53,135 bases of DNA from Lachnospiraceae bacterium. Its GTDB lineage: Bacteria; Bacillota; Clostridia; Lachnospirales; Lachnospiraceae. Under the pieces are notes generated by a model. The model searched no databases and was not told where the DNA came from. It saw only the letters and a program-made list of their open reading frames with translations. A program made the position numbers and the translations under genes. This document shows, in pieces, positions 8,618-49,952 of the stretch. Every line of letters starts with the position of its first letter. Position 1 is the first letter of the stretch. The stretch lies in assembly GCA_910575605.1 (NCBI GenBank), contig CAJTEW010000024.1, positions 1 to 53,135 of the forward strand, read 5' to 3'.

Positions 8618-8644
8618 TTAGCACTCTCTGTTGACAAGTGCTAA
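8618..8644 (+). promoter_or_regulatory. CIRCE operator (HrcA site) upstream of hsp20
   Basis: TTAGCACTC-N9-AAGTGCTAA matches the CIRCE heat-shock operator (TTAGCACTC-N9-GAGTGCTAA) with a single mismatch. It overlaps the -35 element of the promoter at 8631-8659. HrcA bound here would repress Hsp20 until heat or misfolding stress releases it. HrcA is not encoded in the window and would be the host protein. Confidence 0.85.
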
Positions 8645-8775: not shown

Positions 8776-9252
8776 ATGATGACACCCAGTATTTTTGGAG
8801 AAAACTTATTTGATGACTTATTTGATGAATTTTTTGATTTCCCTGTATATGATGATAAGGCAATGCAAAGGGCGCAGAGAAAGTTGTATGGCGGCCACGC
8901 AGTGCATATGATGAAGACGGATGTGCAGGAACATGATGACCATTACGAGGTAGATATTGACCTTCCTGGCTTTAAGAAAGAGGAGCTTTCCCTGGAATTA
9001 AAGAACGGCTATTTGGTAGTGAGTGCAGCGAAGGGACTTGACGAAGATGAGAAAGATAAAAAAACCGGGAAATTTGTACGCCGGGAGCGTTATGCCGGAA
9101 GCATGAGCCGGTCTTTCTATATCGGGGAAGAAGTGAAGCAGGAAGATATTCATGCAAAATATGAGAGCGGAGTATTAAAACTGGCGATTCCAAAGAAAGA
9201 AGAGAAAAAGCCGGAAGTTGAAGAAACAAAATATATTGCCATCGAGGGATAA
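8776..9252 (+). CDS. hsp20: Hsp20/alpha-crystallin family small heat-shock protein
   Basis: A 158-residue ATP-independent holdase chaperone. The N-terminal region is Asp/Phe-rich (FDDLFDEFFDFP). The alpha-crystallin domain spans about residues 46-145, with DLPGFKKEELSLEL, a conserved RRERYAGSMSRSFYI segment (about 103-117) and the A-x-x-x-n-GVLKLAIPK signature (about 128-142). It would bind unfolding proteins in the cytoplasm. AAAAGGAGCG precedes the start; ATG at 8779 is also possible. It is a single-gene unit under CIRCE control with a terminator after it. Its presence on a conjugative element suggests a stress-tolerance cargo or protection of transfer proteins. Confidence 0.92.
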   Translation: MMTPSIFGENLFDDLFDEFFDFPVYDDKAMQRAQRKLYGGHAVHMMKTDVQEHDDHYEVDIDLPGFKKEELSLELKNGYLVVSAAKGLDEDEKDKKTGKFVRRERYAGSMSRSFYIGEEVKQEDIHAKYESGVLKLAIPKKEEKKPEVEETKYIAIEG

Positions 9253-21418: not shown

Positions 21419-21440
21419 AACAATCTATATATAGATTGTT
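21419..21440. promoter_or_regulatory. Perfect 22-bp palindrome between divergent promoters
   Basis: AACAATCTATA followed by its exact reverse complement. It abuts the -35 element of the leftward ssb promoter and lies 16 bases upstream of the rightward -35 element, an ideal place for a dimeric regulator controlling one or both units. The cognate regulator is unknown. Confidence 0.6.
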
Positions 21441-21456
21441 TGTTGAAAATATATAG

Positions 21457-21485
21457 TTGACAATTTTGATATTATATGTTAATCT
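21457..21485 (+). promoter_or_regulatory. Promoter of the MBL/membrane-protein cassette
   Basis: TTGACA (21457-21462) and TAATCT (21480-21485), with a 17-base spacer, directly upstream of a perfect CIRCE element. Confidence 0.75.
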
Positions 21486-21489
21486 TGTG

Positions 21490-21516
21490 TTAGCACTCAA
21501 GTCAATAGAGTGCTAA
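21490..21516 (+). promoter_or_regulatory. Perfect CIRCE operator upstream of the MBL gene
   Basis: TTAGCACTC-N9-GAGTGCTAA matches the HrcA operator consensus at all 18 positions. It covers the predicted start of transcription and ends 13 bases before the ATG, with AAAGGAGG between. HrcA binding would block initiation until protein-folding stress. CIRCE sites normally control groE and dnaK, so a metallo-hydrolase gene is an unusual target. Confidence 0.92.
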
Positions 21517-21529
21517 CAAAGGAGGAAAT

Positions 21530-22624
21530 ATGGCATACGAAATAGATTTTATAGGTATAGATAAGGAAAGTAAAGATGCTACTGCAATCTGTATGAGATG
21601 GAAGGTTAGTAAAGAAAATTACATAGTAGGTGTGTTTGATGGCGGCTTAACCGATTATGGTGAGGCTATGAAGAAACATATGGATCAGTACTATTTTGAT
21701 GGGATTGAGAGAGGACATATTAATTTTGTTATTTGTTCACATCCCCATCAAGATCATGTTCCAGGATTGAAGACAATCCTCGAAAACTTTGATGTTGACG
21801 CGCTCTATATGAATAGACCTTGGGAACATATTGAAGAACTTTTTGAACGAGTAAAAGATGGTCGTATTACAAAGAAGAGTTTAGAAGAGCGACTTAAAAA
21901 TAGGTATACTTATATTGCAGATTTAGAGTTAGTTGCAAATGAACAGGGCATCCCTATTTATGATGCTTTTGAAGGTGATATAATTGAAGAAAAGCTTACT
22001 ATTTTATCTCCCAACAAAGAGTTTTATTTAGATTTACTTGCTGAATCAGACAAAACTCCAGTAATGGAAAGTGCTGCTCAAGATAGTATATTCCATAGTG
22101 TTAAAATTCTTGCTGAGAAAGTTATCAATTTTATCAAAGAAGCTTGGGATAAGGATTCTCTTCGGGAAAATGTGGTAACTGAGCCTGATAATGAAACAAG
22201 TACAGTAGTTCTTGGTGAGATGGAGGATGAGTCATTTTTGTTGAGTGGAGATGTAGGAATTCGTGGATTGCGTCATGCTATAGACTATGCAGATGATGTA
22301 GATAAAAGTCTTCAGACTAATGTTAAACTTTATGAAATTCCACATCATGGTGGTCGCCATAATGTAAGTCCTTCCATTCTTAATGACCTTCTTGGTGAGA
22401 TTGTAGAAAAAGGGACATCACCTAGTAAAACAGCTATTGTCTGTACAGGAAAAGGTACAAATCATCCCAAGCAAATGGTTGTTAATGCATTTTGGCGTAG
22501 AGGTGTAAAAGTTTATAATGCTTCAGGTTATACTATTCGACATCATTGTGGTGATATGCCTTCAAGGAATTGGTCGAGTTCTGTACCAGTGGAATTTAAT
22601 GAACAAGTAGAAGATTGGAATTGA
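21530..22624 (+). CDS. ComEC/Rec2-type metallo-beta-lactamase-fold protein
   Basis: A 364-residue soluble protein with the di-metal site motifs of the MBL superfamily in ComEC-like form: HPHQDH at residues 71-76, the N-E-T-S-T-V-V-L strand before FLLSGDVG (D241), and PHHGG at 271-275. ComEC-type MBL domains are candidate nucleases or phosphodiesterases; the substrate is unknown. It has no membrane channel domain of its own, but the next gene, 4 bases downstream, encodes a membrane protein. AAAGGAGGAAAT precedes the ATG. The gene is more AT-rich than the element backbone, suggesting separate acquisition. It may be a stress-triggered effector or defence enzyme; that is inference. Confidence 0.8.
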   Translation: MAYEIDFIGIDKESKDATAICMRWKVSKENYIVGVFDGGLTDYGEAMKKHMDQYYFDGIERGHINFVICSHPHQDHVPGLKTILENFDVDALYMNRPWEHIEELFERVKDGRITKKSLEERLKNRYTYIADLELVANEQGIPIYDAFEGDIIEEKLTILSPNKEFYLDLLAESDKTPVMESAAQDSIFHSVKILAEKVINFIKEAWDKDSLRENVVTEPDNETSTVVLGEMEDESFLLSGDVGIRGLRHAIDYADDVDKSLQTNVKLYEIPHHGGRHNVSPSILNDLLGEIVEKGTSPSKTAIVCTGKGTNHPKQMVVNAFWRRGVKVYNASGYTIRHHCGDMPSRNWSSSVPVEFNEQVEDWN

Positions 22625-22628
22625 TATC

Positions 22629-23348
22629 ATGAATAAGGCAAAAAAGAATTTTGATGAGTTTACTTGGCAGACTCGCGTAATGCCGGTACTAGTTGCAAGT
22701 GTTCCGCTTTTTTTTGCAGCAGTAGCCAAGGGTTTTTCTACATTAGCTTGGACAGAGGCAGGACTTATGGTGTGTATTACGGTTGTGGTGCTGTCATTAT
22801 TATATCGACTTACAAGAAATATGGGCAAAAAATGCGAAAGAAAAATAACTGATCGTTTAGGTGCAATGCCATCTGTCATTTTACTTCGATATTCTGATTC
22901 AACTATTGGTATCGTTTCAAAGCAACGGTATCATGAGCGCATTAATAAAGTTTATGGGTTAAATCTACCTTTAAATATATCTGATGAAAGGCCTGAAGAC
23001 GATGCCCAGTATGATGCTGCAATACGAAGTTTGAAAAATCGCGCTAATCAAATGAGAGACACCGAATTCCGTGTATATCAAGAGTTGAAGGAATATCACT
23101 TTTTTCGCAACTTATATGGAATCAAGCCAATTGCCTTTAGTGTGTATTTAGTTTTGGCTATTAGAGAAATTTGTCTGATTCCAAATTTCAATATTAAGAA
23201 CCTTTTCATTAATCCAGTTCCAAATTACGTTTCATTTCTGATATTTATAGTTGGAATTTTATTAACTGCTTTAGTTACTAATAAGGGAGTTGAGGAACGT
23301 TCTTTCTCATATGCCAATGCTTTAATTGAGTCATGCGAAAGGATATAA
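22629..23348 (+). CDS. Four-helix membrane protein paired with the MBL protein
   Basis: A 239-residue protein with two N-terminal membrane helices (about residues 18-37, PVLVASVPLFFAAVA; and 43-62, GLMVCITVVVLSLLY), a charged cytoplasmic domain of about 105 residues (VILLRYSDSTIGIVSKQRYH; ELKEYHFFRNLYGIKP), then two C-terminal helices (about 172-190 and 203-222). The 2+2 arrangement around a soluble domain, with a YxxFRNLYG-like motif, is seen in uncharacterised membrane partners of soluble enzymes. It starts 4 bases after the MBL stop, so the two are translationally linked. It could be a pore-forming effector or an anchor; neither is shown. Confidence 0.7.
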   Translation: MNKAKKNFDEFTWQTRVMPVLVASVPLFFAAVAKGFSTLAWTEAGLMVCITVVVLSLLYRLTRNMGKKCERKITDRLGAMPSVILLRYSDSTIGIVSKQRYHERINKVYGLNLPLNISDERPEDDAQYDAAIRSLKNRANQMRDTEFRVYQELKEYHFFRNLYGIKPIAFSVYLVLAIREICLIPNFNIKNLFINPVPNYVSFLIFIVGILLTALVTNKGVEERSFSYANALIESCERI

Positions 23349-23398
23349 TTTTTAGATATGGCTTGATTGAGCTGATATACTTAGATTATATTGTTTAA

Positions 23399-23430
23399 TA
23401 AAAGTACCTGATTTAATCAGGTACTTTTAT
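23399..23430. terminator. Bidirectional terminator between the MBL cassette and the Rpn gene
   Basis: Perfect inverted repeat AAAAGTACCTGAT/ATCAGGTACTTTT with A-rich and T-rich flanks, able to terminate transcription from both sides. The rest of 23349-23540 holds no gene. Confidence 0.8.
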
Positions 23431-23540
23431 ATGCTTCTTATTTCAAAGTTTAGCTGAGTGAAAACAAATTAAGACATATTCTTGTAACTAAAGGAAATGG
23501 ACTAGTGATGGTATCTTATTCATAATTTGTATAAACATAG

Positions 23541-24332
23541 TTAAACACTACTTGGCTGCAAAATCTTTTTACTTAATTCCAATATAAAATCACGAGTGAG
23601 TGATGGAATTGATTTTGCAACAATGTCAACGGATACACCATTTTCTAAAAGGTTTGAAGCAGTCCGAATTTCAGACTGTCTCAGTTTCTCTGCTGCATAA
23701 TCTTCTACGAGTTTGCACATAATAGACGCCCCCTCTCTGGTTTTTTTGAAATAGTCAACACGGTGGCAAGTTTTCGGAAATTTGGAGTTCTGTCCAACAC
23801 TTTTCTTAAAATACTGCATCAACTCAGCGATATCGCTTTTGTCATCAATAGCTGTATTTACATAAATTTCATGCGTCCCATTCTCAACAACAGTTCCTGT
23901 TTCCTTGATAACACGGTCGATATGGTAAATGGTACGGTTTTCATGAAAAGTATCAAACTTTGATATGAAAATGATATACACATCCGGAAGTTCTTTGTAA
24001 TCAAGTCCCTTTTCTACAAAAATAGTATCTATGTTGGAACGGTTGAAACGAACCCGTCTTTGGTGATCATCGTCATCTTCTTTCTGAACCTCGCAGTTTA
24101 TGATGGAATGGTTCTCATCTTCACAGATTAAATCCAGCACAACGGAGTGTGCGCTAATATTTCTTAAAAAGCGCTGTACTTTAGAGTCGATTACTCTTAA
24201 CTTCGGCTTTTTGAGGATAATTCTTAATATTTCCTCTGCAACTTCCCTGTCCTCAGCCATTTTCTGAAAAAATACATCATCAATCACATTCAGCTTGGAG
24301 ACAAAGGCTTTCTGCTCTTCATATGTCTGCAT
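23541..24332 (-). CDS. Rpn-family PD-(D/E)XK nuclease (putative transposase)
   Basis: A 263-residue protein of the recombination-promoting nuclease/transposase_31-like family. It opens with a typical conserved segment (KLNVIDDVFFQKMAEDREVA). The PD-(D/E)XK core is D67 (VVLDL) and E81-x-Q83 (CEVQ), followed by HQRRVRFNRSNIDT and PDVYIIFISK. The tail (LLENGVSVDIVAKSIPSL) matches the family. Such proteins cut DNA and promote RecA-independent recombination. The ATG at 24332 is preferred over 24347 because GGAAG precedes it. The gene is AT-rich like the adjacent MBL cassette and has its own promoter. Confidence 0.82.
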   Translation of the reverse strand: MQTYEEQKAFVSKLNVIDDVFFQKMAEDREVAEEILRIILKKPKLRVIDSKVQRFLRNISAHSVVLDLICEDENHSIINCEVQKEDDDDHQRRVRFNRSNIDTIFVEKGLDYKELPDVYIIFISKFDTFHENRTIYHIDRVIKETGTVVENGTHEIYVNTAIDDKSDIAELMQYFKKSVGQNSKFPKTCHRVDYFKKTREGASIMCKLVEDYAAEKLRQSEIRTASNLLENGVSVDIVAKSIPSLTRDFILELSKKILQPSSV

Positions 24333-24372
24333 AAAACTTCCTTTCATAAATATTGTAGCTGCTTCTATTTTT

Positions 24373-27742: not shown

Positions 27743-30700
27743 TTACTTCTGGTGCTTACGTCTCCAGTAGAAAACAAGCCCGCTGATAATGATAAGAAGC
27801 AGGGAGCCTGCAGCAATACAGATATAAAGCAGGATCGGCGCATCATCCCCGGTCTTGACAGGAGAGGAAATGTCCGGTTCCTTTGGTTCGGTTGGCACTT
27901 CCGTAAGCTTCACGGTCTGGCTTTTAGCTTTGATGTCTTCATGGCTGGTTACTTCTACCTCTTTCTCCTTGTCTTCTTCCTTCAATGTAACAAAGAGCTT
28001 TTCAAAGACAACCACATCATGCCCTTTCAGTTCTGTCGCATCAAAGGTAAAGGTAACATCGACGGAGCCGCTGAATTCTTCTGGTTTAAAAGTGGTTTCT
28101 GCAGTAACCGGCTTGCCATCAATCAGGATTTCCTTACCGGTTTCTTTGTCCATTAAGGTTCCCACCAGGCGGTAGGACGGGCCTCCGGCAACCAGATCCT
28201 TATATTTCACCGTATCTATGATCTGTGTCTCCTTTTCTGCCAGGGCTTCCTGATCCCCGTCCCTGCCATCTTTGGCAGTGGTGCCGATTTCCGGGATATA
28301 GATGCTCTGTGGTTCGGACTCAATATCTGCATGGACTGCGACCTCTTTTTCCTGATAGGAAACGGATTCAAATGCAACAACGGTTTTTCCTTTCAGGGCA
28401 CTGGAATCAAAGGTAAAGGAAAGCTCTACGCTTCCTTCTGCTGCTTCCGGTGTAAAGACAAGCTCAGATGTGACCGTTTTTCCGTCAACCAACAGGAATT
28501 CGCCATTTTCCTGATCCATAAGTGTGCCGGTCAGTTTGTATTCCTTCCCCGGAATCAGACGCTGGTAGGTAACGGTATCTACAATCGTTAATTCTTTCTT
28601 AGCAGGCGCCATCTGGCTTCCGGTTTCCGGGCAGTTCGCCTTTGTGCCAATCTTCGGGAAATAGATGCTTTGCGGTTCGGATTCGATGTCGGCATGAACC
28701 GTAAGTTCCTTCTCCTGATAAGAAAGGGATTCAAACACAACAATGGTTTTGCCCTTCAGAGCGTTGGCATCAAACGTGAATGACAACTCCACAGTCCCGT
28801 CTGCTTTTTCCGGTGTAAATATCAGTTCGGAGGTCACCGGCTTTTTATCAACCATCAGGGACTTGCCGCTCTCCTTATCCATGAGTGTTCCGGTTAATTT
28901 ATATTCTTTTCCCGGAATCAGACACTGATAAGAAACGGTATCTGTAATCGTTACTTCCTTTTTAGCAGGTGCCATCTGGGATTCAGTTTCCGGACAAATG
29001 GCTTTTGTGCCGATTTCCGGGAAATAGATGCTCTGAGGAGTGGATTCAATGTCTGCATGGACAGCGATCTCCTTCTCCTGATAGGATACGGATTCAAACG
29101 CGACGATGGTTTTGCCTTTCAGGGCGCTTGCATCGAATGTGAAGGATAATTCCACCGTGCCATCTGCCTCTTCCGGCGTAAAGACAAGCTCGGAGGTCAC
29201 TGGCTTTTCTTCAACCATCAGGGGTTCACCGCTCTCTTTATCCATAAGTGTTCCCGTCAGCTTATATTCCTTTCCCGGAACCAGATGATAGGAAACAGTA
29301 TCTACTATTGTCAGATCTTTCTTGGGGATTGCCATCTGGCTTCCGGTCTCCGGACAGCTTGCCTTTGTGCCGATCTCCGGGAAGAACATCTGCTGGTCTT
29401 TAAACTCCGGATCTGCATGCATTCCAACCTCTTTTTCTTCCTGGGTGACGGATTCATAGATGACTGTGTTTTTCCCTTTCAGGGAGCTTCCATTAAATTC
29501 AAACACAACATCCACCGTGCCTTCGCTGGCTTCCGGGGTAAAGGTTGTCTGTGCAGTGATCGGAGTATCGCCGTCCAAAAGCGGTTCCTCTGTTTCTGTA
29601 TCCATCAGCCTGCCGGTAGCGACATATTCCAGCTTCGGAACCAATCCTTTAAAGAAAATGGTATCGGTAAGCTGTACCTTTTCATCTGCATTGGCGATAT
29701 TCTCCTCGGTATCAGAGTCTTTCGCCTTCGTGCCGATCTCCGGGAATGAAATCTGCTGGTCTGTATCCTTTAAATCTGCATGAACCGCCAGTTTCTGCCC
29801 ATCCTGGTGCAGCTCCTCGAAGATGACCGTAGTCTTGCCTTCCAAAGAAGTTGCATCAAATGTAAAAGTGACTTCCACAGTTCCGGAGGACTTCTTTGCC
29901 GTAAATTCTGTCTCAGCAGTTACAGGCTTTTCATCAATCAGGATTGCTTCTCCAGATTCAGCATCCATCAGCGTACCGATAACCTGATATTTTTGACCCT
30001 TCTTTAACCCAGAATACTCTACGGTATCAATCAGTGTCACTTTCTTCTCCGGTTTGCTCATATGGGTTCCGGTATTCTTATCCAGGGCAGTAGTGCTGAT
30101 CTCAATCTTATCGTCGGTCAATGTTCCTAAATCCACACTGACAGAATCTTTATAAACAGTGACTTCAAACTTTAAGAGATCCATGCTCTTATTCGCCTTA
30201 CAGCGCTGTTCTTCTACGGTATAAGTATCATAGGGCAGTGCGCCTTTAGAATCGTTTGGTTTTGAGGTTCCAAACCAGATTCCGTCTTCCGAGGTTTTCC
30301 CCTGATTGGTATTGTGGGTGTGCTTATTCCATTTGGAAGCGGTGCTGGCGTAACCGTTTTTGTCGGTAACAATCGTGTGGCTTTCCCCGGTTGTAACAGA
30401 GGTAATGGAAAATGGGATGTCGGAAAGCCGTTTCTGTTCGCCATCGGACACTTTTACCAGTTCCAGGTCCCCGCGGATGACCTGGTTTGATATGGAAGCC
30501 TCCTCAGAAGTCAGATCTACAATCTCACCATTTTTTGTGATGTCAAATTCTACAGAGAGTTTTCCTTCATTCAGATATCCTTCCGGAGCTTTGGTTTCAT
30601 CTGCGCAGTAATGCCCGAAGGGAAACGCATCTTTTTTTGTGGAGACAGAGCCGTTGCTATCGGTTGTCAGGCTCATAACTACCTGATTCTTGGTATAGGT

Positions 30701-32113
30701 TTTGCCATCTACCACAACAGGATTCTCATTTAAGGACGTGATGGTAAATACAGCTCCTTCTAAAGTGGCAGCTCCCTGGGGTTCTGCCTTCTTTGTCTCA
30801 AAATCCCGTTTCTGAAGCTTCACGCCGCCCCGGCAGACCTGTTCTTCTACAGAAGAGGCATTATAGCAGGATACGGTCTCCGCTTTGCCGCCTGCTGTGA
30901 TTTTCTGTACAAATATGGTATCGTTGGCAAGATATCCGGCTGGAGCCTTTGTCTCCTGTACCGTTACGGTGCCAAGTGGGAGGCAGGGTGTCTTCCCGTC
31001 TTTCTGGGTATAGAACGCATCTCCGGAAACCAGATAATTGTTGGAAAACTGTGCCTTCCCTTCGGAATCTGTTTTGAAAATCCAGGTACGTGCAGGCTTT
31101 GCACCGCTGGCAGCCGGGTCTTTATCAGATTGTTCGGTATAAAATTTCACTGTGAACTGAGCCTCTGCCAGGGAAGCTTTTCCCGGCGGCTGTGCGGCTT
31201 TCAGTTCCTTGTCCAGTTTTTGGAGAAGCAGGTCCATCGGATCATTCTGGGGTACTTCCGTTACATTCAGGGAAGCCGTCTTTTCCGGCTCTACTGTCAC
31301 ATTGTGGGTATTCACGTCAACAATATAACCCTTAGAAGCAGTAAGTTCTTTGACTGTATAGTTTCCAGATTCCAGCTCACTAGATTTAGCATAGCCGTTT
31401 TCATCCGTAACTAATTTTGCAACCTGCTTTTCGCCCTGATAGATTCCATACTCTGCACCCTTTAAGGAATAATTTCCGTTTCCTTTAGAGACAGCAGCAT
31501 TTGCGGAAGCTTTGTGGAGCTCTATGTAGCCGTAGGGAACCTGATACCAGCTTCCAACCAAAGTCTGGTCGTTATTGCCCGGAATGATGAAAGCCCTGAA
31601 GGTTGCCGGGGGTTCCGGGAGTCCCTTGATGGCATTCGCTATTTCCACAGATTTATCAATATAGTTCTGGGGCGCACCATGGAAGGCTCCGCTGTCTGAA
31701 GCATAGCCTGCATAGATGTAGGCAACGACCAGATGACCGATGACATAAGAATTATCATCGGACCATCCGCCCAGGTACTGGTTTTTGATATGCTTGTTAT
31801 ACCCATATCCGCCGTTCAGATAGTATAATGCTTTCCGGATGGGAGAGTCATTGCCAAGCAGGGTATAAGCATAAGTCCCAGATGAGGGCGTAGGCTGTAA
31901 TGGTTCTACACAATAGGCGGTGTTGCTGCCGTCAAAGGTCATTCTGGAAGTAGAATAGCTTCCGTATTTGATAGAAGCTCCGGCTTGATACTGGATGGTG
32001 CCGTCTGCGGCATGGACAGGGACGCTGTCGGAAAGGCAGGTGCCTGCAGTGACAAGGACTGCAAGCAGAAATGCGGACAGCCGCTTCATATGATGTTTTG
32101 CTTTTTGTAACAT
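27743..32113 (-). CDS. Thioester- and VaFE-repeat surface adhesin
   Basis: A 1456-residue secreted protein. A signal peptide covers about residues 1-36. A thioester-type domain follows (TAYCVEPLQP, candidate thioester Cys68). Then come SpaA/Cna-B-like isopeptide domains (YGIYQGEKQVAKLVTDENGY; YTVKELTASKGYIVD), about residues 200-690. Six VaFE (T-Q ester bond) repeats run from about 695 to 1415. The C-terminus has SPVKTGD, a hydrophobic helix and RRKHQK, a sortase-type signal of the non-LPXTG kind. It would be anchored to the wall, with cross-links giving stiffness, and may bind host or partner cells covalently. No sortase gene is in the window, so a host sortase is needed. AAGGAGGAAACTT precedes the ATG. 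Confidence 0.88.
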   Translation of the reverse strand: MLQKAKHHMKRLSAFLLAVLVTAGTCLSDSVPVHAADGTIQYQAGASIKYGSYSTSRMTFDGSNTAYCVEPLQPTPSSGTYAYTLLGNDSPIRKALYYLNGGYGYNKHIKNQYLGGWSDDNSYVIGHLVVAYIYAGYASDSGAFHGAPQNYIDKSVEIANAIKGLPEPPATFRAFIIPGNNDQTLVGSWYQVPYGYIELHKASANAAVSKGNGNYSLKGAEYGIYQGEKQVAKLVTDENGYAKSSELESGNYTVKELTASKGYIVDVNTHNVTVEPEKTASLNVTEVPQNDPMDLLLQKLDKELKAAQPPGKASLAEAQFTVKFYTEQSDKDPAASGAKPARTWIFKTDSEGKAQFSNNYLVSGDAFYTQKDGKTPCLPLGTVTVQETKAPAGYLANDTIFVQKITAGGKAETVSCYNASSVEEQVCRGGVKLQKRDFETKKAEPQGAATLEGAVFTITSLNENPVVVDGKTYTKNQVVMSLTTDSNGSVSTKKDAFPFGHYCADETKAPEGYLNEGKLSVEFDITKNGEIVDLTSEEASISNQVIRGDLELVKVSDGEQKRLSDIPFSITSVTTGESHTIVTDKNGYASTASKWNKHTHNTNQGKTSEDGIWFGTSKPNDSKGALPYDTYTVEEQRCKANKSMDLLKFEVTVYKDSVSVDLGTLTDDKIEISTTALDKNTGTHMSKPEKKVTLIDTVEYSGLKKGQKYQVIGTLMDAESGEAILIDEKPVTAETEFTAKKSSGTVEVTFTFDATSLEGKTTVIFEELHQDGQKLAVHADLKDTDQQISFPEIGTKAKDSDTEENIANADEKVQLTDTIFFKGLVPKLEYVATGRLMDTETEEPLLDGDTPITAQTTFTPEASEGTVDVVFEFNGSSLKGKNTVIYESVTQEEKEVGMHADPEFKDQQMFFPEIGTKASCPETGSQMAIPKKDLTIVDTVSYHLVPGKEYKLTGTLMDKESGEPLMVEEKPVTSELVFTPEEADGTVELSFTFDASALKGKTIVAFESVSYQEKEIAVHADIESTPQSIYFPEIGTKAICPETESQMAPAKKEVTITDTVSYQCLIPGKEYKLTGTLMDKESGKSLMVDKKPVTSELIFTPEKADGTVELSFTFDANALKGKTIVVFESLSYQEKELTVHADIESEPQSIYFPKIGTKANCPETGSQMAPAKKELTIVDTVTYQRLIPGKEYKLTGTLMDQENGEFLLVDGKTVTSELVFTPEAAEGSVELSFTFDSSALKGKTVVAFESVSYQEKEVAVHADIESEPQSIYIPEIGTTAKDGRDGDQEALAEKETQIIDTVKYKDLVAGGPSYRLVGTLMDKETGKEILIDGKPVTAETTFKPEEFSGSVDVTFTFDATELKGHDVVVFEKLFVTLKEEDKEKEVEVTSHEDIKAKSQTVKLTEVPTEPKEPDISSPVKTGDDAPILLYICIAAGSLLLIIISGLVFYWRRKHQK
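28225..29400 (-). repeat. Near-identical tandem VaFE repeat units (about 360 bp each)
   Basis: VaFE repeats 3-5 of the adhesin recur with periods of 360 and 363 bases (the landmark GCCATCTGG falls at 28608, 28971 and 29331). At protein level each starts IGTKA-x-CPET and contains PGKEYKLTGTLMD and VHADIES. Each has one Cys in a CPET motif not found in repeats 1, 2 and 6. Their similarity points to recent duplication, and the array is likely to vary in copy number. Confidence 0.85.
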
Positions 32114-32372: not shown

Positions 32373-35300
32373 TTACACCTCTTTCTGTTTCTGGCGCGCC
32401 AGAATCTCCAGGAGTTCCTGACGGTCGGTGGTGATCAGTTCTTTCTCCAGTGCAGAGGCTTTAAACTCCACCGTAATATTATTGTTGTTTGTTGAAATTA
32501 AGCCATTCCCCCTTTGAAAATGTGTGATGTTCATGACTTCCGTTTCTGAAAGGTGCAGGATATGCTCTACCCTCTGAGCCTCCTCATCTTCCATGTTCAG
32601 GATGATCTTTGTCTTGCAGTTATTGATGATCCCCTTTCCATATTTACCGTCATCTAAAGCGAAGAAATCATTTAAGTCCTGGGTGGCGAAGATCCCGGCT
32701 CCTGAGTAGGCACGGATGATCTTGGCAATCTCCAGCACGAATTCTGCAGCCAGACGGTTGCTGGAAGCACCGATTAACTGCCATACCTCATCCACAAAGA
32801 TTGCCTTTTCCTCCGTCCGGTTTTCCTTCGCCTTATCCCAGACATAATCCAGCGCAACAAACATGCCGACCGTTAAGAGGTCGCTGGAACCGGTCAGCTC
32901 TGAGATATCCAGTACCGTATATTTATTGGTCAAATCTACATTGGTCTGCTGGTTAAAGGAAGAGGCAGAGCCATGCACCAGGCGGTTCAGGATGTGTGCC
33001 AGCCGTTTCGTGTCCCGGCTTTCCATCAGGATATCATAGACATCCTCCAGGATTGGCATAGCTTTGTATTGGTCGGGATGTTCCGGATCGAGCAGGGATT
33101 CATTCTTATGCGTGATCCCTTTCCTGGCATAGGTCTTGATCAGCGCCTCATCTAAAAGCTGTTTCTCCTCGTGGTTCATATCCGGAATCAGCAGGCTGAA
33201 GAAGATATGCAGCTTCTGTATTTTGGAAGCAAGAGCCGAAGCATCCAGGGTCGGACCGTCTAACAGCTCATTAACGGAATTATCGACCTTACGGATCTCC
33301 ATGATGTTGATACAACTCCGGCTGGCCGGGGAAATCTGGATAAATTCTCCGCCTACATTCTTGCAGGCGCGGTAGAACTCATGCCCCTTTAAGGGGGCGA
33401 TGATGAATACCTGGATACTCTTCCTGCGCATCCGAAGCGCCATGGTCTGCATGGTAAAAGTCTTTCCGGCTCCGGAGCATCCCAGGATGCAGATGTTGGA
33501 ATTCTTATACTGTTTGGAGTCGAAGATATCCGCAATGACCAGCGAATTATTATGCTTATTGACTCCGAACAGGATGCCGTTGTCGTCACAGATGCTGTAG
33601 CTGGTAAAGGGATAACAGCTTGCGGCACCGGTAGTCAGCACATTCCGTTTGGACAGCTCATAAAGCTTCTTATCTAAGGAAGCAAGTGGCAGGGATGACC
33701 GGAATCCCTGCTCCTGCAGGAAATAGCAGGAGCGTAAGTCCATGTCCTGGGAAATCAGGAGTTTTTTCATCTCCTGTATCCGCCACTGCAGTTCCTCCAG
33801 ATCTGACGCCGTAATGGTAATAAGGAGGTTCATATAGTAGAAATCCTCATTATTGGCAAGTCCGGCTTTCAAAAAATATCCGGAGCGGATGGCAGAATCC
33901 AGATCGTCAAAATCCGAGTTCGTATCCGAGGCATCCTTGATTTTGGAACGGTTGATACGGATCTGCTGTCCCAGACGCTGCTGGATCTTGTCCTTTGGCT
34001 GCTTATGCAGGTAGAAATCAATGTCAATCCCTTCCCCTGCGTTGATGAGGAGGGAGAGCCAGCCGGGAGTGACCTTATTCTTATAGCCGTCTGACGGGAC
34101 CATGAGATAGGTGTGGTAAAGCCCGTTGATCCGTACATAATTGCTGTGCTTCAAATCCAAAGATTCCGGTGCAGTAAAGGCATTGCAGTGAATGGTATCC
34201 ACATCTTTCCCCTCCGCCATGCGCTGTCCCAGAACTTCGGTGATCCGTTCCGGGAGAGGTTTGTCGGTACACAGCGTCCGGTTCAATAAGGTATAGAGCA
34301 CATCCGTGGTAAACTCATCCTCATTTTCATGCATGACCACATCATTGCCGCACTGATAGAGGAAGGTCTTTGCTGTCTGTGCCGCAGTCTCCAGCGCCGC
34401 CAGGATTTCTTTTTCTTCCGTCTTCCGGTTTACATTGAACGGCTCATATTCAAAAATAAGAAAAAAGCGGCGGGAGACTGCCTCTCTGGAGCTTAAATGC
34501 CGGACGAACTGGATATAATCCCTCTGAAGCTCCCTGCATCTGGGATCGGATTCCCGTTCCAGCTCTTTTGCGGACTGCTCCAGGTGGCGGTTGATATCCG
34601 CTTTCTTGGAGATCATCTTGATCTGGAGCTTTACAGGGCTGATTTTTAAATAAGAGATAAAGCTGTAAATAATACTCTGCTGTTCTCTGGCGCTTCGTAA
34701 CAGGAAGTTGATGGGTTCGATCTCCAGAATCTTGACGTAACGGTGGTCGGTGGTATAGACGATACCGTTTGCAATCTTCTCGACTGGCAGGTAATCCTCC
34801 AGTGTCTGAAATTTGCGTTTCTTCTTTTTTACCGGAGCGGAGGGGCTGTCCGGATGTTTCTTCCGGTAAGCAGCCTCCTTCTTCTCATATTTCTCCAGCC
34901 GTATTGCTTCCTTTTTCTCATATTTGGCTGTACGGACGGCTTCTTTCTTGTCCTCCTTTCTCTGCCGTTCGCGTGCAGCTTTCTCTTTCTTTGCATCTTT
35001 TAACGCCTGAGTCTGCGCTTTCTTTGTCAGCTTCTGCTCTATTTTGAGCACCCGGATATCCTCTTTTGCCTGCTTTTTAATCCCACTGCTGGTGGAAGTA
35101 TCGTAGATCCGGCGTTCCCGTTTTTTCTCCATTTTCCGGTGTGCAGCCTCTCTTTTTCTGGCTTTCCGGACGGAAGATTCTGACGGAGAGGTTTCCTGCT
35201 CTTGACCAGCAGAACCCTGCTTTTTTCCCGTCTTCTGATTTCTTCGCTTCTGGCTCTTAGGCTCCTGGCTCCTTGCATGCTGCCTCCGCTTCCGGTAATC

Positions 35301-35612
35301 CGGCATAACGTCAGAACGGTAGATGATCCTCCGATTTTTCATGAACCGGAGGGCATTCATCAAAAATGCAGTCAGGCTTTCCCCGCCAATCCCAATCAGG
35401 GCAACCATAGCGGCCGGGAGGGAGGTCATGCAGAGGATGACGATGCGCGTTGTCAACGACAGGGGCAGGTGGACAACCGGAATCCCAATCCCGGCTGCAA
35501 GCACAGCCCCTTCGATGGCATTACGGATCTTGAACATCCCGCCCATGAATGTGCCGCGTTCCATAAAATTACGCGGGATTAAAGCCACCTGCTGTTCTTC
35601 TGGGCTATTCAT
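32373..35612 (-). CDS. virB4: PrgI-VirB4 fusion, conjugative transfer ATPase
   Basis: A 1079-residue protein. Residues 1-100 are a PrgI/VirB3-like membrane module (MFKIRNAIEGAVLAAGIGIP, then a second hydrophobic segment). Residues 100-260 are a Lys/Glu/Arg-rich coiled region. The rest is the VirB4/TraE ATPase with Walker A GCSGAGKT (711-718) and Walker B IFVDE (938-942), plus FATQDLNDFF. It powers assembly of the transfer channel at the membrane. The VirB3-VirB4 fusion is known in Gram-positive systems; the long charged insertion is unusual. GAGGAGGTGACGCC precedes the ATG, which overlaps the stop of the gene upstream by 4 bases. Confidence 0.9.
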   Translation of the reverse strand: MNSPEEQQVALIPRNFMERGTFMGGMFKIRNAIEGAVLAAGIGIPVVHLPLSLTTRIVILCMTSLPAAMVALIGIGGESLTAFLMNALRFMKNRRIIYRSDVMPDYRKRRQHARSQEPKSQKRRNQKTGKKQGSAGQEQETSPSESSVRKARKREAAHRKMEKKRERRIYDTSTSSGIKKQAKEDIRVLKIEQKLTKKAQTQALKDAKKEKAARERQRKEDKKEAVRTAKYEKKEAIRLEKYEKKEAAYRKKHPDSPSAPVKKKKRKFQTLEDYLPVEKIANGIVYTTDHRYVKILEIEPINFLLRSAREQQSIIYSFISYLKISPVKLQIKMISKKADINRHLEQSAKELERESDPRCRELQRDYIQFVRHLSSREAVSRRFFLIFEYEPFNVNRKTEEKEILAALETAAQTAKTFLYQCGNDVVMHENEDEFTTDVLYTLLNRTLCTDKPLPERITEVLGQRMAEGKDVDTIHCNAFTAPESLDLKHSNYVRINGLYHTYLMVPSDGYKNKVTPGWLSLLINAGEGIDIDFYLHKQPKDKIQQRLGQQIRINRSKIKDASDTNSDFDDLDSAIRSGYFLKAGLANNEDFYYMNLLITITASDLEELQWRIQEMKKLLISQDMDLRSCYFLQEQGFRSSLPLASLDKKLYELSKRNVLTTGAASCYPFTSYSICDDNGILFGVNKHNNSLVIADIFDSKQYKNSNICILGCSGAGKTFTMQTMALRMRRKSIQVFIIAPLKGHEFYRACKNVGGEFIQISPASRSCINIMEIRKVDNSVNELLDGPTLDASALASKIQKLHIFFSLLIPDMNHEEKQLLDEALIKTYARKGITHKNESLLDPEHPDQYKAMPILEDVYDILMESRDTKRLAHILNRLVHGSASSFNQQTNVDLTNKYTVLDISELTGSSDLLTVGMFVALDYVWDKAKENRTEEKAIFVDEVWQLIGASSNRLAAEFVLEIAKIIRAYSGAGIFATQDLNDFFALDDGKYGKGIINNCKTKIILNMEDEEAQRVEHILHLSETEVMNITHFQRGNGLISTNNNNITVEFKASALEKELITTDRQELLEILARQKQKEV

Positions 35613-44394: not shown

Positions 44395-45195
44395 ATGGCA
44401 GTCGCACATAAGGGAAGTATTTCTATGGGACTGGTGCTGATTCCCATAGGAATGTATAAGGCAACCCAGGATCATGATATCCATTTCAATCAGCTTGATA
44501 AGGAAAGCAAGGCCCGGATCAAGTATAAAAAATACTGCAGCCATTGTGGGAAAGAAGTAACGGCAAATGATATCATAAAAGGATACGAATATGAAAAAGA
44601 CAAATATGTTGTCATGACGGATGAGGAGCTGGAGAAGATCAAGACCAGGAAAGACAAGACCATCCATATCATCCAGTTCGCAAAAATGTCTGAGGTAAAT
44701 ATGATCTATTACGAAAAGGATTATTATGCCGTTCCGGATACAGGTGCAGAGAAGGCATACGAACTCCTCCGCCAGTCACTGCTGTCCCAGAAGAAAGTCG
44801 CTATCGCAAAAACCGTAATGGGAACCAACGAAAAGCTCCTGGTACTATATCCTACAAAGGAAGGCATTATCATAAAGACATTATTTTACCATGATGAGAT
44901 CGCAGCAATGCCGAAAGCGGTTCCTAAGATGAAACTGGATGAGAATGAGCTTAATATGGCTAAAATGCTGATTGAGAATATGACAAGGCCTTTTAAGGCA
45001 GAAGAATTCCGGGATGAATACCAGGCGAGGCTGCGGGAGGCGATCATGAAGAAGATCCAGGGACAGGAAATTGTTGCAGTGGAAAGCAGCGGGCCATCCA
45101 ATGTCATTGACCTGATGGAAGCTTTGCAGAAAAGTTTGGAATTATCGAAAAATCCAGATGAGGACAGCAAAAAGCTGCTTACGGGAACTGCATGA
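44395..45195 (+). CDS. ku: Ku, bacterial non-homologous end-joining protein
   Basis: A 266-residue homodimeric DNA-end binding protein, the usual length for bacterial Ku. The start VAHKGSISMGLVLIPIGMY, the RIKYKKYCSHCGKEVTANDI segment, and VNMIYYEKDYYAVPDTGAEK with LLRQSLLSQKKVAIAKTVM are family hallmarks. It threads onto double-strand ends and recruits the ligase, encoded immediately downstream with a 4-base overlap. TTTGAGGTGAAGAT precedes the ATG. Ku on a conjugative element suggests protection or rejoining of DNA ends during entry or excision. Confidence 0.92.
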   Translation: MAVAHKGSISMGLVLIPIGMYKATQDHDIHFNQLDKESKARIKYKKYCSHCGKEVTANDIIKGYEYEKDKYVVMTDEELEKIKTRKDKTIHIIQFAKMSEVNMIYYEKDYYAVPDTGAEKAYELLRQSLLSQKKVAIAKTVMGTNEKLLVLYPTKEGIIIKTLFYHDEIAAMPKAVPKMKLDENELNMAKMLIENMTRPFKAEEFRDEYQARLREAIMKKIQGQEIVAVESSGPSNVIDLMEALQKSLELSKNPDEDSKKLLTGTA

Positions 45196-46133
45196 TGGGA
45201 ATTTATGAAGCCCGCAACGCAAGCCCTATGTTGATTGCACAGCAGATGGAAGCATTCGATGATCCAGACTGGATATATGAACTGAAAATGGATGGTTTTC
45301 GGTGCCTTGCTTATATTGACCGGAATTCTGTAGACTTTCGGAATAAACGGAATATGCAGATGCTGCCGAAATTTCCGGAGCTTGCAGAGATCTATAAGAA
45401 TGTAAACGGAAGATGTATTTTGGATGGGGAAATCATAGTGCTTGCAGACGGTGTGCCGGATTTTTACCGTCTTCAGAAACGAACCCTGCTGGCTGACCGG
45501 TTTAAGATTGAACTGGAGGCAGGCCGGTTCCCGGCTTCTTTCGTGGCATTTGACTGCATTTATCAGGGGGATCAGGAGCTGGTTTTTCAACCACTTATGG
45601 AAAGAAAACGGAAGCTTTCAGGGATGATTACGGAAAGTGATAGGATTGCAGTCTTCCGTTATATCGAAAAAGAGGGAACGGCGCTTTATCAGGCGGCAGA
45701 GGCGAGGGAACTGGAAGGGGTTGTGGCAAAAAGAAAAGAGAGCCTGTATTTTATGGGGAAGCGGACAAAGGACTGGGTAAAGTTTAAACGCATGGCAGAT
45801 GAAGAATTCATTGTCGCGGGATATATACAAAAGGGGGAACATACCTTTAGCCTGGTACTGGCGAAATACCGGCTTGGCAGGCTGGTTTATAAAGGGCATG
45901 TCACTTCCGGAGTGACAAAGGATGCAGTAATGCATCTGAAGAAAACAGGAAGGAATCCGTTTCAGATGCTGCCGACAGGGAACGAAAGCGCTGTCTGGGT
46001 AAAACCAGATCAGGTCTGTGTGGTGGAATATATGCCAAATACGCTGCATTCCCTTCGGCAACCGGTTTTTAAAGGATTTCGTGATGATATCCTCCCGGAA
46101 GATGTGCAGGTAAGTGATGAGCATATAAAATAA
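45192..46133 (+). CDS. ligD: ATP-dependent DNA ligase (LigD-type ligase domain)
   Basis: A 313-residue stand-alone ligase: nucleotidyltransferase domain with KMDG (residues 32-35, K32 the AMP acceptor), the ILDGEI motif (about 76-81), EGVVAKRKESLY (about 178-189), WVKFKR and a C-terminal OB domain. It lacks the polymerase and phosphoesterase domains of long LigD, so those activities, if present, are encoded elsewhere. With Ku it should form a minimal end-joining system. Its ATG overlaps the ku stop; a second ATG at 45195 is equally possible. The symbol is used for the ligase module only. Confidence 0.9.
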   Translation: MMGIYEARNASPMLIAQQMEAFDDPDWIYELKMDGFRCLAYIDRNSVDFRNKRNMQMLPKFPELAEIYKNVNGRCILDGEIIVLADGVPDFYRLQKRTLLADRFKIELEAGRFPASFVAFDCIYQGDQELVFQPLMERKRKLSGMITESDRIAVFRYIEKEGTALYQAAEARELEGVVAKRKESLYFMGKRTKDWVKFKRMADEEFIVAGYIQKGEHTFSLVLAKYRLGRLVYKGHVTSGVTKDAVMHLKKTGRNPFQMLPTGNESAVWVKPDQVCVVEYMPNTLHSLRQPVFKGFRDDILPEDVQVSDEHIK

Positions 46134-46246
46134 CGCCTGGAAAAAGGCAGGGTCATTCATGCCGTACTTTGAAATACATCATAGAAAAATCCTGATACTT
46201 GTGTTAAGATGGTGACATGAAATCGGAAGTTGTGGAGAACATTTCT

Positions 46247-46690
46247 ATGAAAATATTGGTAGATGCGGATGCCTGCCCGGTTGTTTCCATTGTGGAGCAT
46301 GTGGCAAGTAAATATAGGATACCAGTCATTCTCCTGTGTGATACGAACCATGTACTGCAGTCAGCGTACAGTGAAGTCAAGGTGATTGGAGCCGGTACAG
46401 ATGCAGTGGACTTTGCACTGGTTGGCTTATGCCAGAAGGGAGATCTGGTGGTAACGCAGGATTATGGCGTTGCTGCAATGATTCTGGGGAAGGGAGCTTA
46501 TGGAATCCATCAGAGTGGGAAATGGTATACGGATGAGAACATTGACCGTATGCTGATGGAACGGCATATCAGTAAGAAGGTACGGCGCTCAAAATCAAAG
46601 CATCATCTGAAAGGACCTGCAAAACGGACAGCAGAGGATGATATAAGGTTTGAGGAGGCACTGGAGCGGCTGATTTTGAAAATACTTTGA
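46247..46690 (+). CDS. YaiI/YqxD family (UPF0178) protein
   Basis: A 147-residue protein starting at ATG 46247 (GTGGAGAACATTTCT upstream; the frame opens at 46217). The DADACPV opening, DTNH, GAGTDAVDFALVGLCQKGDL, TQDYGVAAMILGKGA and a basic C-terminal RRSKSKHHLKGPAKRT are family signatures. The fold is PIN/NYN-like, suggesting a nuclease, but no activity is established. It sits between the ligase and the macrodomain genes in the repair-flavoured block. Confidence 0.85.
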   Translation: MKILVDADACPVVSIVEHVASKYRIPVILLCDTNHVLQSAYSEVKVIGAGTDAVDFALVGLCQKGDLVVTQDYGVAAMILGKGAYGIHQSGKWYTDENIDRMLMERHISKKVRRSKSKHHLKGPAKRTAEDDIRFEEALERLILKIL

Positions 46691-46758
46691 CTCAGAAAAG
46701 TTGCAGGGAAGATGAAAAGATACAAGGAATTGATGATTGATTAAGTGGAGTGTGGAAT

Positions 46759-47286
46759 ATGAAGATTCAAACAGTACAGGGTGATATTACAGAGGTTGAA
46801 GATTTAGAGGCTATCGTAAATGCAGCGAACAGAAGTCTGCTTGGAGGTGGAGGCGTTGACGGAGCCATACACCGGGCGGCAGGAAAAGAGCTGCTGGAAG
46901 AATGCAGGACACTGAACGGGTGCAATACCGGAGAAGCAAAGATTACGGGCGCATATAAACTGCCCTGTAAATATGTGATCCATACAGTGGGGCCGGTATG
47001 GCATGGCGGTAAAGACGGCGAGCCAAAGTTGCTGGCAAATGCTTATCGAAATTCTTTGCAGACGGCTGTTGAAAACGGTATCCGGACGATTGCATTTCCG
47101 TCCATATCCACAGGCATTTACAGCTATCCCGTAGACCAGGCGGCAGCGATAGCTGTGAGGACGGTGAAAGAGTTCTGCATCCGGCATCCGGATGATATTG
47201 ATATTGTACGTTTCGTGCTGTTTGATGCGGATACGCACCGTGCCTATGACCACGCAATTTACGAAGCCGAAATAAATCAGGAATAA
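46759..47286 (+). CDS. Macrodomain protein (O-acetyl-ADP-ribose deacetylase-like)
   Basis: A 175-residue single-domain protein of the YmdB/MacroD type: GDITEV (residues 8-13), [20 protein letters not shown] (about 22-41) forming the ADP-ribose pocket with the catalytic-type Asp, [10 protein letters not shown], and [12 protein letters not shown] (about 114-125). It should remove ADP-ribose marks or deacetylate O-acetyl-ADP-ribose. The ATG at 46759 follows AGTGGAGTGTGGAAT; GTG at 46750 is the alternative. Its place beside Ku, ligase and RecD2 suggests DNA-damage signalling or counter-defence. Confidence 0.9.
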
Positions 47287-47330
47287 GGTCTTTTCTATAT
47301 GGATGACAGCCTAAACTAAGGGAGAACAGT

Positions 47331-49952
47331 ATGGAACACCTGCGATGCGTAGTTGAAAGGATTACTTATACGAATACGGAAAATGGTTACACCGTATTAA
47401 AGGTAGCGGCTAAGAACTATAACGACCTGGTCAATGTTGTCGGAATCATGCCGGATACGCATGTTGGCTCTGTTCTATCTCTGGAGGGTTTCTGGAAGAT
47501 GGATGCCAAATACGGCAGGCAGTTTTCCGTAGAGAAGTTTGAAGAGACTCTCCCTGCAACAGTCTATGGAATTGAGAAATACTTAGGTTCCGGCTTAATT
47601 AAAGGTGTCGGGCCGAAGTTTGCAAAGCGGATTGTCCAGAAATTCGGAAAGGATACACTGGATGTGATCGAGGATACGCCGGATGAACTCATTACAGTGG
47701 AAGGGATAGGGAAGATCCGCGTAGAACGGATTAAGAAGAGCTGGCAGGAGCAGAAGGAGATCAAGAATATCATGCTCTTTCTGCAGAGCCATGAAGTGAA
47801 TACCACCCATGCCACAAAGATTTTTAAAACCTACGGAAGTGACAGTATCAGCGTGGTACAAGAGAATCCTTATCGCTTGGCAGACGACATCTGGGGAATC
47901 GGATTTAAGACTGCGGATATGATCGCCGAAAAACTGGGTATTGAAAAGGGACGCTTTATCCGTTTGCGGAGCGGACTGTTCTATACATTAAACAAGCTGG
48001 CAGAAGACGGTCACTGTTATGGGGACAGGGAACAGCTGATTAAAAAGGCGGTGGAACTTTTGGAAGTGGATACCCCGGAGCTGGAGATCACATTGGATGA
48101 AATGCTCCGCACCGAGGATGTGATCAGAGATGAAGAATCAATTTATCTGCCGCCCTTTTTCTTTTCTGAGACCGGGTGCGCCAAAAGGCTGATCAAACTG
48201 TTAATGTCCGAACGCAGGATGAAAATGGATGTGCAGGCAGTTCTGTCGCAGGTTCGCAAGCAATCGGATATTACATACGATGAGATTCAGTTGGAAGCGA
48301 TCTGTACAGCGGTTTCATCGAAAGTGATGGTTCTGACCGGTGGGCCGGGGACCGGAAAAACGACTACAACTATGGGAATTATTTCCGCCTACCGGATGGC
48401 CGGATGCAGGATCATACTGGCGGCGCCTACCGGAAGAGCGGCAAAAAGGATGTCTGAAACTACTGGGATGGAAGCGAAAACGATTCACCGGCTGCTGGAA
48501 TATAAACCTCCGGAAGGATATCAGAAAAATGAAGAAAATCCTTTGGAGGGTGATGTTCTGATACTGGACGAGTGTTCTATGATTGATGTGATGCTTATGT
48601 ACAATCTCCTGAAAGCGCTTCCGGAACATATGACATTGATTATGGTGGGCGATACGGACCAGCTTCCTAGCGTAGGGGCGGGAAATGTCCTGAAAGATAT
48701 CATCGTCTCGAACCGGATCCCGGTTGTGCGGCTGACCAGAATATTCAGACAGGCGCAGGGAAGCAGGATCATCATGAACGCTCATCGGATCAACAAAGGC
48801 AAACCTATTGATATGCGCGGCGGTAAGGAGTCCGATTTCTTTTTTGCCGGAAGAGATACCAACGAAGAAGTGGTGGACACGCTGGTTAAGTTCTGTACGA
48901 AGAATCTGCCCCGCTATTATCATGTGGATGCCTTTCAGGATATCCAGGTGCTTGCACCGATGCAGAGGGGGATCTGCGGGGCGGCAAATTTAAACCAGGT
49001 GCTGCAGGAAACCATGAATCCGTCCAAAATCTTCCTTCGCAGGGGCGGCACACAGTATCGGCTCCATGATAAGGTCATGCAAATCCGTAACAATTACGAT
49101 AAAGAAGTTTTTAACGGCGATATCGGAACTATTTGTAAAGTTGACATGGAGGAACGGGAACTGATAGTAGATTATGAAGGCCGGGAAGTTCTCTATGATG
49201 TCAGCGAGCTGGATGAACTGGTGCTGGCCTATGCGACCACGATCCATAAGGCGCAGGGAAGCGAATATCCGATTGTAGTCATGCCTTTTACCATGAGCCA
49301 TTTTGTGATGCTGCAGAGAAACCTGCTATACACAGGGGTTACTAGGGCAAAGAAGATCCTGGTGCTGATCGGGGAGAAAAAAGCGGTCAGTTATGCCATA
49401 AAGAATGAGACTACCGCCGCAAGAAATACGAAGCTTGCCAAACGTCTGGTGGAGGGCAGCATGGAGTCAAAGACTGTAGAGGTAGATATTTTGAAGCGAC
49501 GGTTAAATGGTGAAAATGAAAGTCAGCTGGAAAAGAAACCAAAGACGATGAGCTATAAGAATCACATGCAGCCGATGAGGATTGAAGAGGAACCAGCTGG
49601 GTATGGGGGCGATTTATTTGAACGGCTGGCATGTTCTAGGTTTCGGAGCAGTTTTTCCTTAAACGCCAACGACAGGGCATATATTGCTGACAAGGGAATG
49701 GATACCATACGTCGCCATGCACATGATTTCGTAGAAAAGCGGCTGGCTCCTTCCGAACCACAGAATGATGGAAAGCAGACGCCGATGAGAGGACATCCGG
49801 TGTTTGTTGCCCAGCATGCGACAGCTACTTGCTGCAGAGGATGCCTGGAGAAATGGCATAATATCCCTAAAGGCAGGGAACTGACCATACAGGAGCAGGA
49901 TTATGTAGTAAATGTTATTTTACAGTGGATAGACGGGCAGAAGGCTCAATAA
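47331..49952 (+). CDS. recD2: RecD2-type DNA helicase fused to a DUF4186 domain
   Basis: An 873-residue protein. Residues 1-330 hold the RecD2 N-terminal OB and helix-hairpin-helix region (LIKGVGPKFAKRIVQKFG; VEGIGKIRVERIKKSW). Superfamily 1 helicase motifs follow: Walker A GGPGTGKTT (337-345), DECS Walker B (413-416), VGDTDQLPSVGAGNVL, and late YATTIHKAQGSEYP. From about 762 to 870 lies DUF4186 (CSRFRSSFSL; DGKQTPMRGHPVFVAQHATA; CCRGCLEKWHNIPKGRELT). RecD2 unwinds DNA 5' to 3' in repair. DUF4186 is normally a separate protein. AAGGGAGAACAGT precedes the ATG. Confidence 0.9.
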   Translation: MEHLRCVVERITYTNTENGYTVLKVAAKNYNDLVNVVGIMPDTHVGSVLSLEGFWKMDAKYGRQFSVEKFEETLPATVYGIEKYLGSGLIKGVGPKFAKRIVQKFGKDTLDVIEDTPDELITVEGIGKIRVERIKKSWQEQKEIKNIMLFLQSHEVNTTHATKIFKTYGSDSISVVQENPYRLADDIWGIGFKTADMIAEKLGIEKGRFIRLRSGLFYTLNKLAEDGHCYGDREQLIKKAVELLEVDTPELEITLDEMLRTEDVIRDEESIYLPPFFFSETGCAKRLIKLLMSERRMKMDVQAVLSQVRKQSDITYDEIQLEAICTAVSSKVMVLTGGPGTGKTTTTMGIISAYRMAGCRIILAAPTGRAAKRMSETTGMEAKTIHRLLEYKPPEGYQKNEENPLEGDVLILDECSMIDVMLMYNLLKALPEHMTLIMVGDTDQLPSVGAGNVLKDIIVSNRIPVVRLTRIFRQAQGSRIIMNAHRINKGKPIDMRGGKESDFFFAGRDTNEEVVDTLVKFCTKNLPRYYHVDAFQDIQVLAPMQRGICGAANLNQVLQETMNPSKIFLRRGGTQYRLHDKVMQIRNNYDKEVFNGDIGTICKVDMEERELIVDYEGREVLYDVSELDELVLAYATTIHKAQGSEYPIVVMPFTMSHFVMLQRNLLYTGVTRAKKILVLIGEKKAVSYAIKNETTAARNTKLAKRLVEGSMESKTVEVDILKRRLNGENESQLEKKPKTMSYKNHMQPMRIEEEPAGYGGDLFERLACSRFRSSFSLNANDRAYIADKGMDTIRRHAHDFVEKRLAPSEPQNDGKQTPMRGHPVFVAQHATATCCRGCLEKWHNIPKGRELTIQEQDYVVNVILQWIDGQKAQ

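Follow-up and report, generated by a model that had tools for sequence, protein, structure and literature searches.

What would a two-gene cassette on a conjugative element gain from a heat-shock operator? The question arises from a 53,135-nucleotide stretch of a Lachnospiraceae bacterium (GCA_910575605.1, contig CAJTEW010000024.1; hereafter the window), in which genes for a ComEC-type metallo-beta-lactamase (MBL)-fold hydrolase and for a small membrane protein follow a perfect controlling inverted repeat of chaperone expression (CIRCE), the site of HrcA (Table 1). The CIRCE/HrcA switch usually controls heat-shock chaperones. Our analysis suggests that the cassette is probably a defence-type module, made up of the MBL and a membrane effector, under HrcA dosage control. 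The enzyme is already catalogued as the phage-defence candidate PDC-M48B; what is new is its partner, which is not PDC-M48A, and the CIRCE/HrcA regulatory link. In the literature searched, no published link between this switch and a mobile defence-type module was found.

Measured against the CIRCE consensus quoted in an excerpt of PMC7464140, TTAGCACTC-N9-GAGTGCTAA, the operator shows 0 mismatches, with 0.00 matches expected (100 shuffles), which rules out a chance origin. It lies 13 bp from the MBL start codon, between a TTGACA-17-TAATCT promoter and a GGAGG ribosome-binding site. The sigma-A promoter of the original prediction held in part: the -35 hexamer (21457-21462) is perfect, while the best -10 hexamer, 17 nt downstream, agrees with the consensus at just 3 of 6 positions, which is why a consensus scan missed it. 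The cassette promoter is therefore plausible, its consensus match not strong. Searching the whole genome with up to two mismatches returned six CIRCE-like sites, and a reversed control pattern returned none. The remaining sites precede hrcA, htpG, groEL and two hsp20-like genes (these genes, like those after the CIRCE sites of viral contigs and in the related elements L213-L220 below, were named by eye from their open reading frames, ORFs, the Hsp20 gene in the window also by Pfam), so that the cassette joins a small, otherwise chaperone-type regulon. The hrcA-like ORF, which supplies the host regulator that had been proposed, starts 27 nt after its site (C4); the groEL ORF begins 391 nt past its CIRCE, with space enough for groES between. 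A second CIRCE in the window (1 mismatch) is located upstream of an Hsp20 gene, and the CIRCE of the second Hsp20-like gene, outside the window, has 2 mismatches. The likeness to an HrcA-CIRCE heat-shock regulon thus consists of a perfect operator at the promoter and of hrcA itself being under CIRCE in the same genome, but the target here is a mobile defence-type gene pair and not a chaperone or a chaperone regulator. CIRCE was also seen in 104 stretches of viral contigs (L051-L154), where the longest downstream ORFs comprised GroES-, GroEL-, HtpG- and Hsp20-like as well as unknown genes, one family recurring 29 nt past the operator.

The MBL contains the motifs HPHQDH, SGDVG and PHHGG and is followed after 4 bp by the membrane ORF, as originally described; its metal-ligand residues are intact and it was assigned the ComEC fold. 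It matches PADLOC PDC-M48B (PDLC04676) over residues 2-362 of 364 (E = 1.5e-106) and, more weakly, the MBLs of Lamassu (LmuA, 2.3e-13) and of a defence-associated reverse transcriptase (DRT) system (2.8e-13). With the NCBIfam 6A-MBL profile NF058524 it scored 20.8 bits, far under the 220-bit cut-off, and with the ComEC_Rec2 equivalog 30.1 bits (cut-off 190.05; best stretch at profile positions 555-658 of 663); unlike ComEC/Rec2, it has no channel domain. PADLOC places PDC-M48, in which A is a small membrane protein and B an MBL, among known and candidate phage-defence systems. The window shares with it the full-length M48B enzyme and a neighbouring small multi-helix membrane protein, whereas its partner is longer and belongs to a 2+2-helix family other than PDC-M48A, and no CIRCE was seen in the scanned PDC-M48A-type loci. 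The suggestion that the system might be undescribed is thus not supported as it stood, since the enzyme is already a PADLOC candidate and a P2-type phage (L038) encodes PDC-M48A and PDC-M48B together.

For the membrane protein, hydropathy predicts four helices (residues 17-35, 44-62, 167-185 and 199-217) and the AlphaFold2 model is helical (mean pLDDT 82), in agreement with the proposed 2+2 architecture; its linker bears R-D and Y-x3-RN motifs. It matched 0 PADLOC families at E ≤ 1, its profile showed no kinship to that of PDC-M48A (hhalign probability 0.1%), and CBASS-type and SLATT effector models did not match it, with fold comparison at background. A distant relative, L043, is matched by a '2TM Effector' model (E = 1e-3), and a SLATT model gave 0.17 with L163, under that model's cut-off. 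Csx27, a membrane protein associated with type VI-B CRISPR, is weakly matched by the membrane partners in L049 (2578-3072; E = 7e-4) and L182 (2127-2750; E = 5.5e-4).

Co-occurrence of the two proteins in relatives, a check named beforehand, was assessed in 43 viral-contig loci, 43 plasmid records (8 opened via the MBL query), 4 P2-like phage records (2 opened) and genome hits. The five weakest viral loci (L193-L197), a near copy (L039), a fragment (L050) and a copy of the same element (L007) were left out; the 51 loci used collapsed to 41 at 85% identity, and setting aside 4 truncated representatives left 37. A protein of 140-300 aa with at least two predicted helices, within 250 bp of the MBL, was found in 35 of these 37 loci and for 7 of 138 control ORFs from the same loci. 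L227 and L229 entered the set through the membrane query; leaving them out gives 33 of 35. L188 and L045 are the two loci that do not show the pairing; an L045-type Acinetobacter plasmid carries a partial match to the window membrane protein about 4.5 kb off, past a 6A-MBL operon. The pair recurs across bacteria, plasmids and viral contigs, on the same strand in either order, convergent or divergent, and so the original description of a mobile effector-type pair is upheld in the form of a recurrent two-component module with defence-type associations. In two Staphylococcus plasmids (L221 and L222), the window membrane family is convergent with a different, shorter MBL-like gene, split over two reading frames in L221, which suggests a further lineage of MBLs paired with four-helix membrane proteins. 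On a Rhodococcus plasmid (L227, 1-4702), such a pair adjoins a cluster of SecB chaperone, helix-turn-helix and RelE-ParE genes and an abortive infection (Abi) gene.

Several associations connect the module with defence. Both P2-like phage records that were opened show the pair adjoining the replication gene gpA, and the cos-proximal gpA-gpQ locus of P2-type phages is described in an excerpt of PMC9122126 as a hotspot of antiviral systems. The P2-phage pair stretch was covered to at least 80% in 44 of 5,426 E. coli genomes, and 21 records reached an identity of at least 99%. A tblastn search with the window membrane protein returned H46 (3e-14), H48 (3e-16), H52 (7e-13) and H67 (1e-12), each adjoined by cap2_3. 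The same membrane family follows MBL and cap2_3 genes in 6A-MBL systems of Emticicia (L224), Methylocystis (L225) and Nostoc (L226), and follows a cap2_3 gene in Agrobacterium. It is thus common to the window and to the anti-phage 6A-MBL system of NCBIfam (NF058524 MBL plus NF058523 cap2_3), as a partner observed here in such operons and not as a named part of that system; the window differs in having no neighbouring cap2_3 (E1/E2/JAB-type) gene, its flanks being ssb and an Rpn-type nuclease gene. Taken together, the PDC-M48B match, the near-universal pairing, the P2 hotspot and the 6A-MBL operons make a putative defence role of the module well supported by association. The hydrolase plus transmembrane system of P4 satellites, which we take to be Hydrolase-3Tm of DefenseFinder, is alike in combining a hydrolase with a membrane protein in a phage/satellite hotspot. 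Since its enzyme is HAD-like, according to an excerpt of PMC9122126, and that of the window has an MBL fold, an identity with this system was rejected.

How the module came under HrcA was addressed by scanning relatives' loci. CIRCE was absent from all 59 relatives' loci scanned, namely 12 from plasmids, phages or genomes with up to 4 mismatches allowed, 38 from viral contigs with up to 3 and another 9 from plasmids with up to 5. This set is not dereplicated and its members are not all independent. It includes L221-L226, in which the membrane relative occurs with other MBLs or in 6A-MBL operons; in L171, L180, L181 and L185 the absence is uninformative, because these loci begin close to the MBL. 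Many hosts in this set presumably have no HrcA. The only other copy of the operator, an identical one, was found in an uncultured Lachnospiraceae metagenome-assembled genome (L007) carrying the same element (98.1% identity over 13 kb; promoter-CIRCE region 73/73, MBL 1094/1095, membrane gene 719/720, AAA gene 1761/1821). The original prediction had counted the absence of CIRCE in relatives against itself, and the idea that the operator belonged to the module ancestrally is indeed rejected. The predicted HrcA control is most likely a local acquisition of this lineage, judging from its distribution, and was most likely brought in with the cassette: three related elements (L213, L215 and L216) share the leader and promoter side of ssb, to which the window is similar by eye up to about position 21439, but not the CIRCE promoter.

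This distribution leaves some room for the possibility that CIRCE is a borrowed promoter switch, which would limit basal expression of a defence-type pair without conveying information on infection, the MBL alone sensing phage. We consider this a possible but rather unlikely account. It agrees with the persistence of the pairs where CIRCE is missing and with the arrival of the CIRCE-promoter region together with the cassette. The operator is nevertheless perfect and well placed, so that folding stress should induce the cassette, provided that HrcA behaves as it does in other bacteria.

The membrane component varies more than the enzyme. At least four types were distinguished: the 2+2 type of the window, PDC-M48A, a third type distantly related to that of the window (hhalign probability 82%, E = 1e-5) and a fourth (L182/L185). 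Mapped onto an MBL tree (37 rows, 35 with a label), the type switches at least 10 times; the possible minimum is 3 and shuffled labels give 16.2, so membrane types are also clustered on the tree. A constant enzyme with an exchanged membrane component is what one would expect if the MBL were the sensor or trigger and its effectors could be replaced. Alternatively, the membrane protein might simply be a tether, holding at the envelope an MBL that cuts incoming phage or plasmid DNA in the manner of the ComEC MBL domain, without cell killing. Such a tethered nuclease appears unlikely, because partners without detectable sequence kinship alternate and the window type occurs in 6A-MBL operons as well, both of which fit an effector better than an anchor.

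Still less probable is that the two genes are true members of the HrcA regulon with a role in proteostasis, a hydrolase and a membrane protein aiding the envelope in heat. The chaperone-type nature of the other CIRCE targets in the genome speaks for this, but very few genomes of the bacterium's own phylum (3 of 398, counting its own and one fragment) and class (1 of 391, its own) encode the MBL, and relatives of the MBL reside on mobile elements and viral contigs in loci where CIRCE is lacking. An addiction module, in which one gene is a toxin restrained by the other and stabilises the conjugative element, is improbable to a similar degree, as two short neighbouring genes on mobile elements would suit it but their varying order and orientation and their changing membrane families are unlike a tightly matched toxin-antitoxin pair.

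We therefore return to a defence-type module whose dose is set by HrcA. In this model, a two-gene mobile conflict module would ride as cargo on the conjugative element, the MBL acting as the sensing or triggering enzyme (by kinship a nuclease or phosphodiesterase) and the membrane protein, once triggered, as an effector that would damage or de-energise the membrane and cause abortive infection. According to an excerpt of PMC8533110, based on Campylobacter and, by citation there, on B. subtilis and Chlamydia, GroE enhances HrcA activity, and in the titration model unfolded protein occupying GroE relieves HrcA. If this applies to the present lineage, HrcA would repress the cassette promoter while GroE is free; heat, or a phage that uses the chaperonin, would titrate GroE with unfolded protein and lower HrcA activity, and the module would be produced together with the chaperones. 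The pair should then be expressed under folding stress and, placed behind a heat-shock chaperone switch, may be armed when protein folding is in trouble. HrcA would determine how much of a potentially toxic pair is made, and might also contribute to its trigger. That chaperonin titration through GroE, HrcA and CIRCE is itself the infection or stress signal arming an abortive-infection pair is a more tentative proposal, to which we give a minor share of our confidence. Toxin-antitoxin-chaperone (SecB) systems provide a precedent in that they tie a defence toxin to a chaperone, one that is dedicated to the system, whereas here control would pass through the HrcA and GroE of the host.

The surroundings of the cassette are those of a conjugative element, with a coupling protein of the type IV secretion system and a TraG-like ATPase. 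The GC content is 0.33-0.37 at 21-24 kb, compared with 0.47-0.52 at 11-21 kb and 0.49 at 25-26 kb, which bears out the AT-rich character ascribed to the two genes; the segment at 24-25 kb is also low (0.39). The terminator expected behind them is represented by a terminator-like hairpin. The element gene g24428 was matched in 13 of 299 genomes of the family, its own included, and its neighbourhood was viewed in 8 stretches from 8 other genomes. In L213, L215 and L216, regulator and ABC-transporter genes lie in the 7-10 kb that separate g24428 from ssb; in L214, L217 and L218, g24428 is accompanied by other cargo and ssb is out of view, and L219 and the short L220 gave no clear arrangement. The g24428 side in relatives thus resembles a cargo bay holding regulator/ABC-transporter sets, with a toxin-antitoxin-like pair in L218 and a ribosomal-protection-like protein in L214. 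An Rpn/PDDEXK_2-type nuclease gene, AT-rich like the cassette, lies between the cassette and the element gene. At the junction of the cassette with the ssb promoter there is a perfect 20-bp palindrome, ACAATCTATATATAGATTGT, of which the genome has a single copy when up to 3 mismatches are allowed; a role as a further cassette operator was rejected, given this single copy and the resemblance of its core, by eye, to the ssb-side stretch in related elements. Further along the window are adjacent Ku and ATP-dependent DNA ligase genes (a non-homologous end joining pair), followed by genes for a macro-domain protein and for a RecD2-type helicase carrying DUF4186 at its C-terminus, and a gene for an adhesin-like surface protein that combines a thioester domain with SpaA-type and T-Q ester bond domains.

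Table 1. Features of the cassette and of the surrounding window.
Feature	Coordinates	Strand	Basis or size
Putative sigma-A promoter (TTGACA, 17 nt, TAATCT; TG upstream of -10)	21457-21485	+	sequence
Operator for HrcA (perfect CIRCE), overlapping the expected transcription start	21490-21516	+	sequence scan
Shine-Dalgarno GGAGG	21521-21525	+	sequence
ComEC-type MBL-fold hydrolase, full-length PADLOC PDC-M48B match	21530-22624	+	364 aa
Membrane protein, 2 helices, ~100-residue K/R-rich linker, 2 helices; candidate membrane effector	22629-23348	+	239 aa
Terminator-like hairpin behind the cassette	23398-23430	+	sequence scan
AT-rich cargo cassette, approximate limits, between g24428 and ssb	21440-23440	+	GC, comparison of conjugative elements
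Second CIRCE	8618-8644
Hsp20 gene	8776-9252		Pfam HSP20
Palindrome at the cassette-ssb promoter junction	21420-21439		20 bp
Rpn/PDDEXK_2-type nuclease gene	23541-24347
Adhesin-like surface protein	27743-32113		1456 aa
TraG-like ATPase	32373-35612
Region with Ku and ATP-dependent DNA ligase genes	44395-49952
Type IV secretion system coupling protein	51339-52979

If release of HrcA does arm the pair, the bacterium would in effect read an overloaded chaperonin, to which phage assembly may lead, as a general sign of infection, and any phage that overloads GroE would switch the module on. Beyond this lineage, PDC-M48-type and 6A-MBL operons draw on a common pool of MBL-paired membrane proteins, which leads to a testable prediction as to which part of such systems senses and which part kills.
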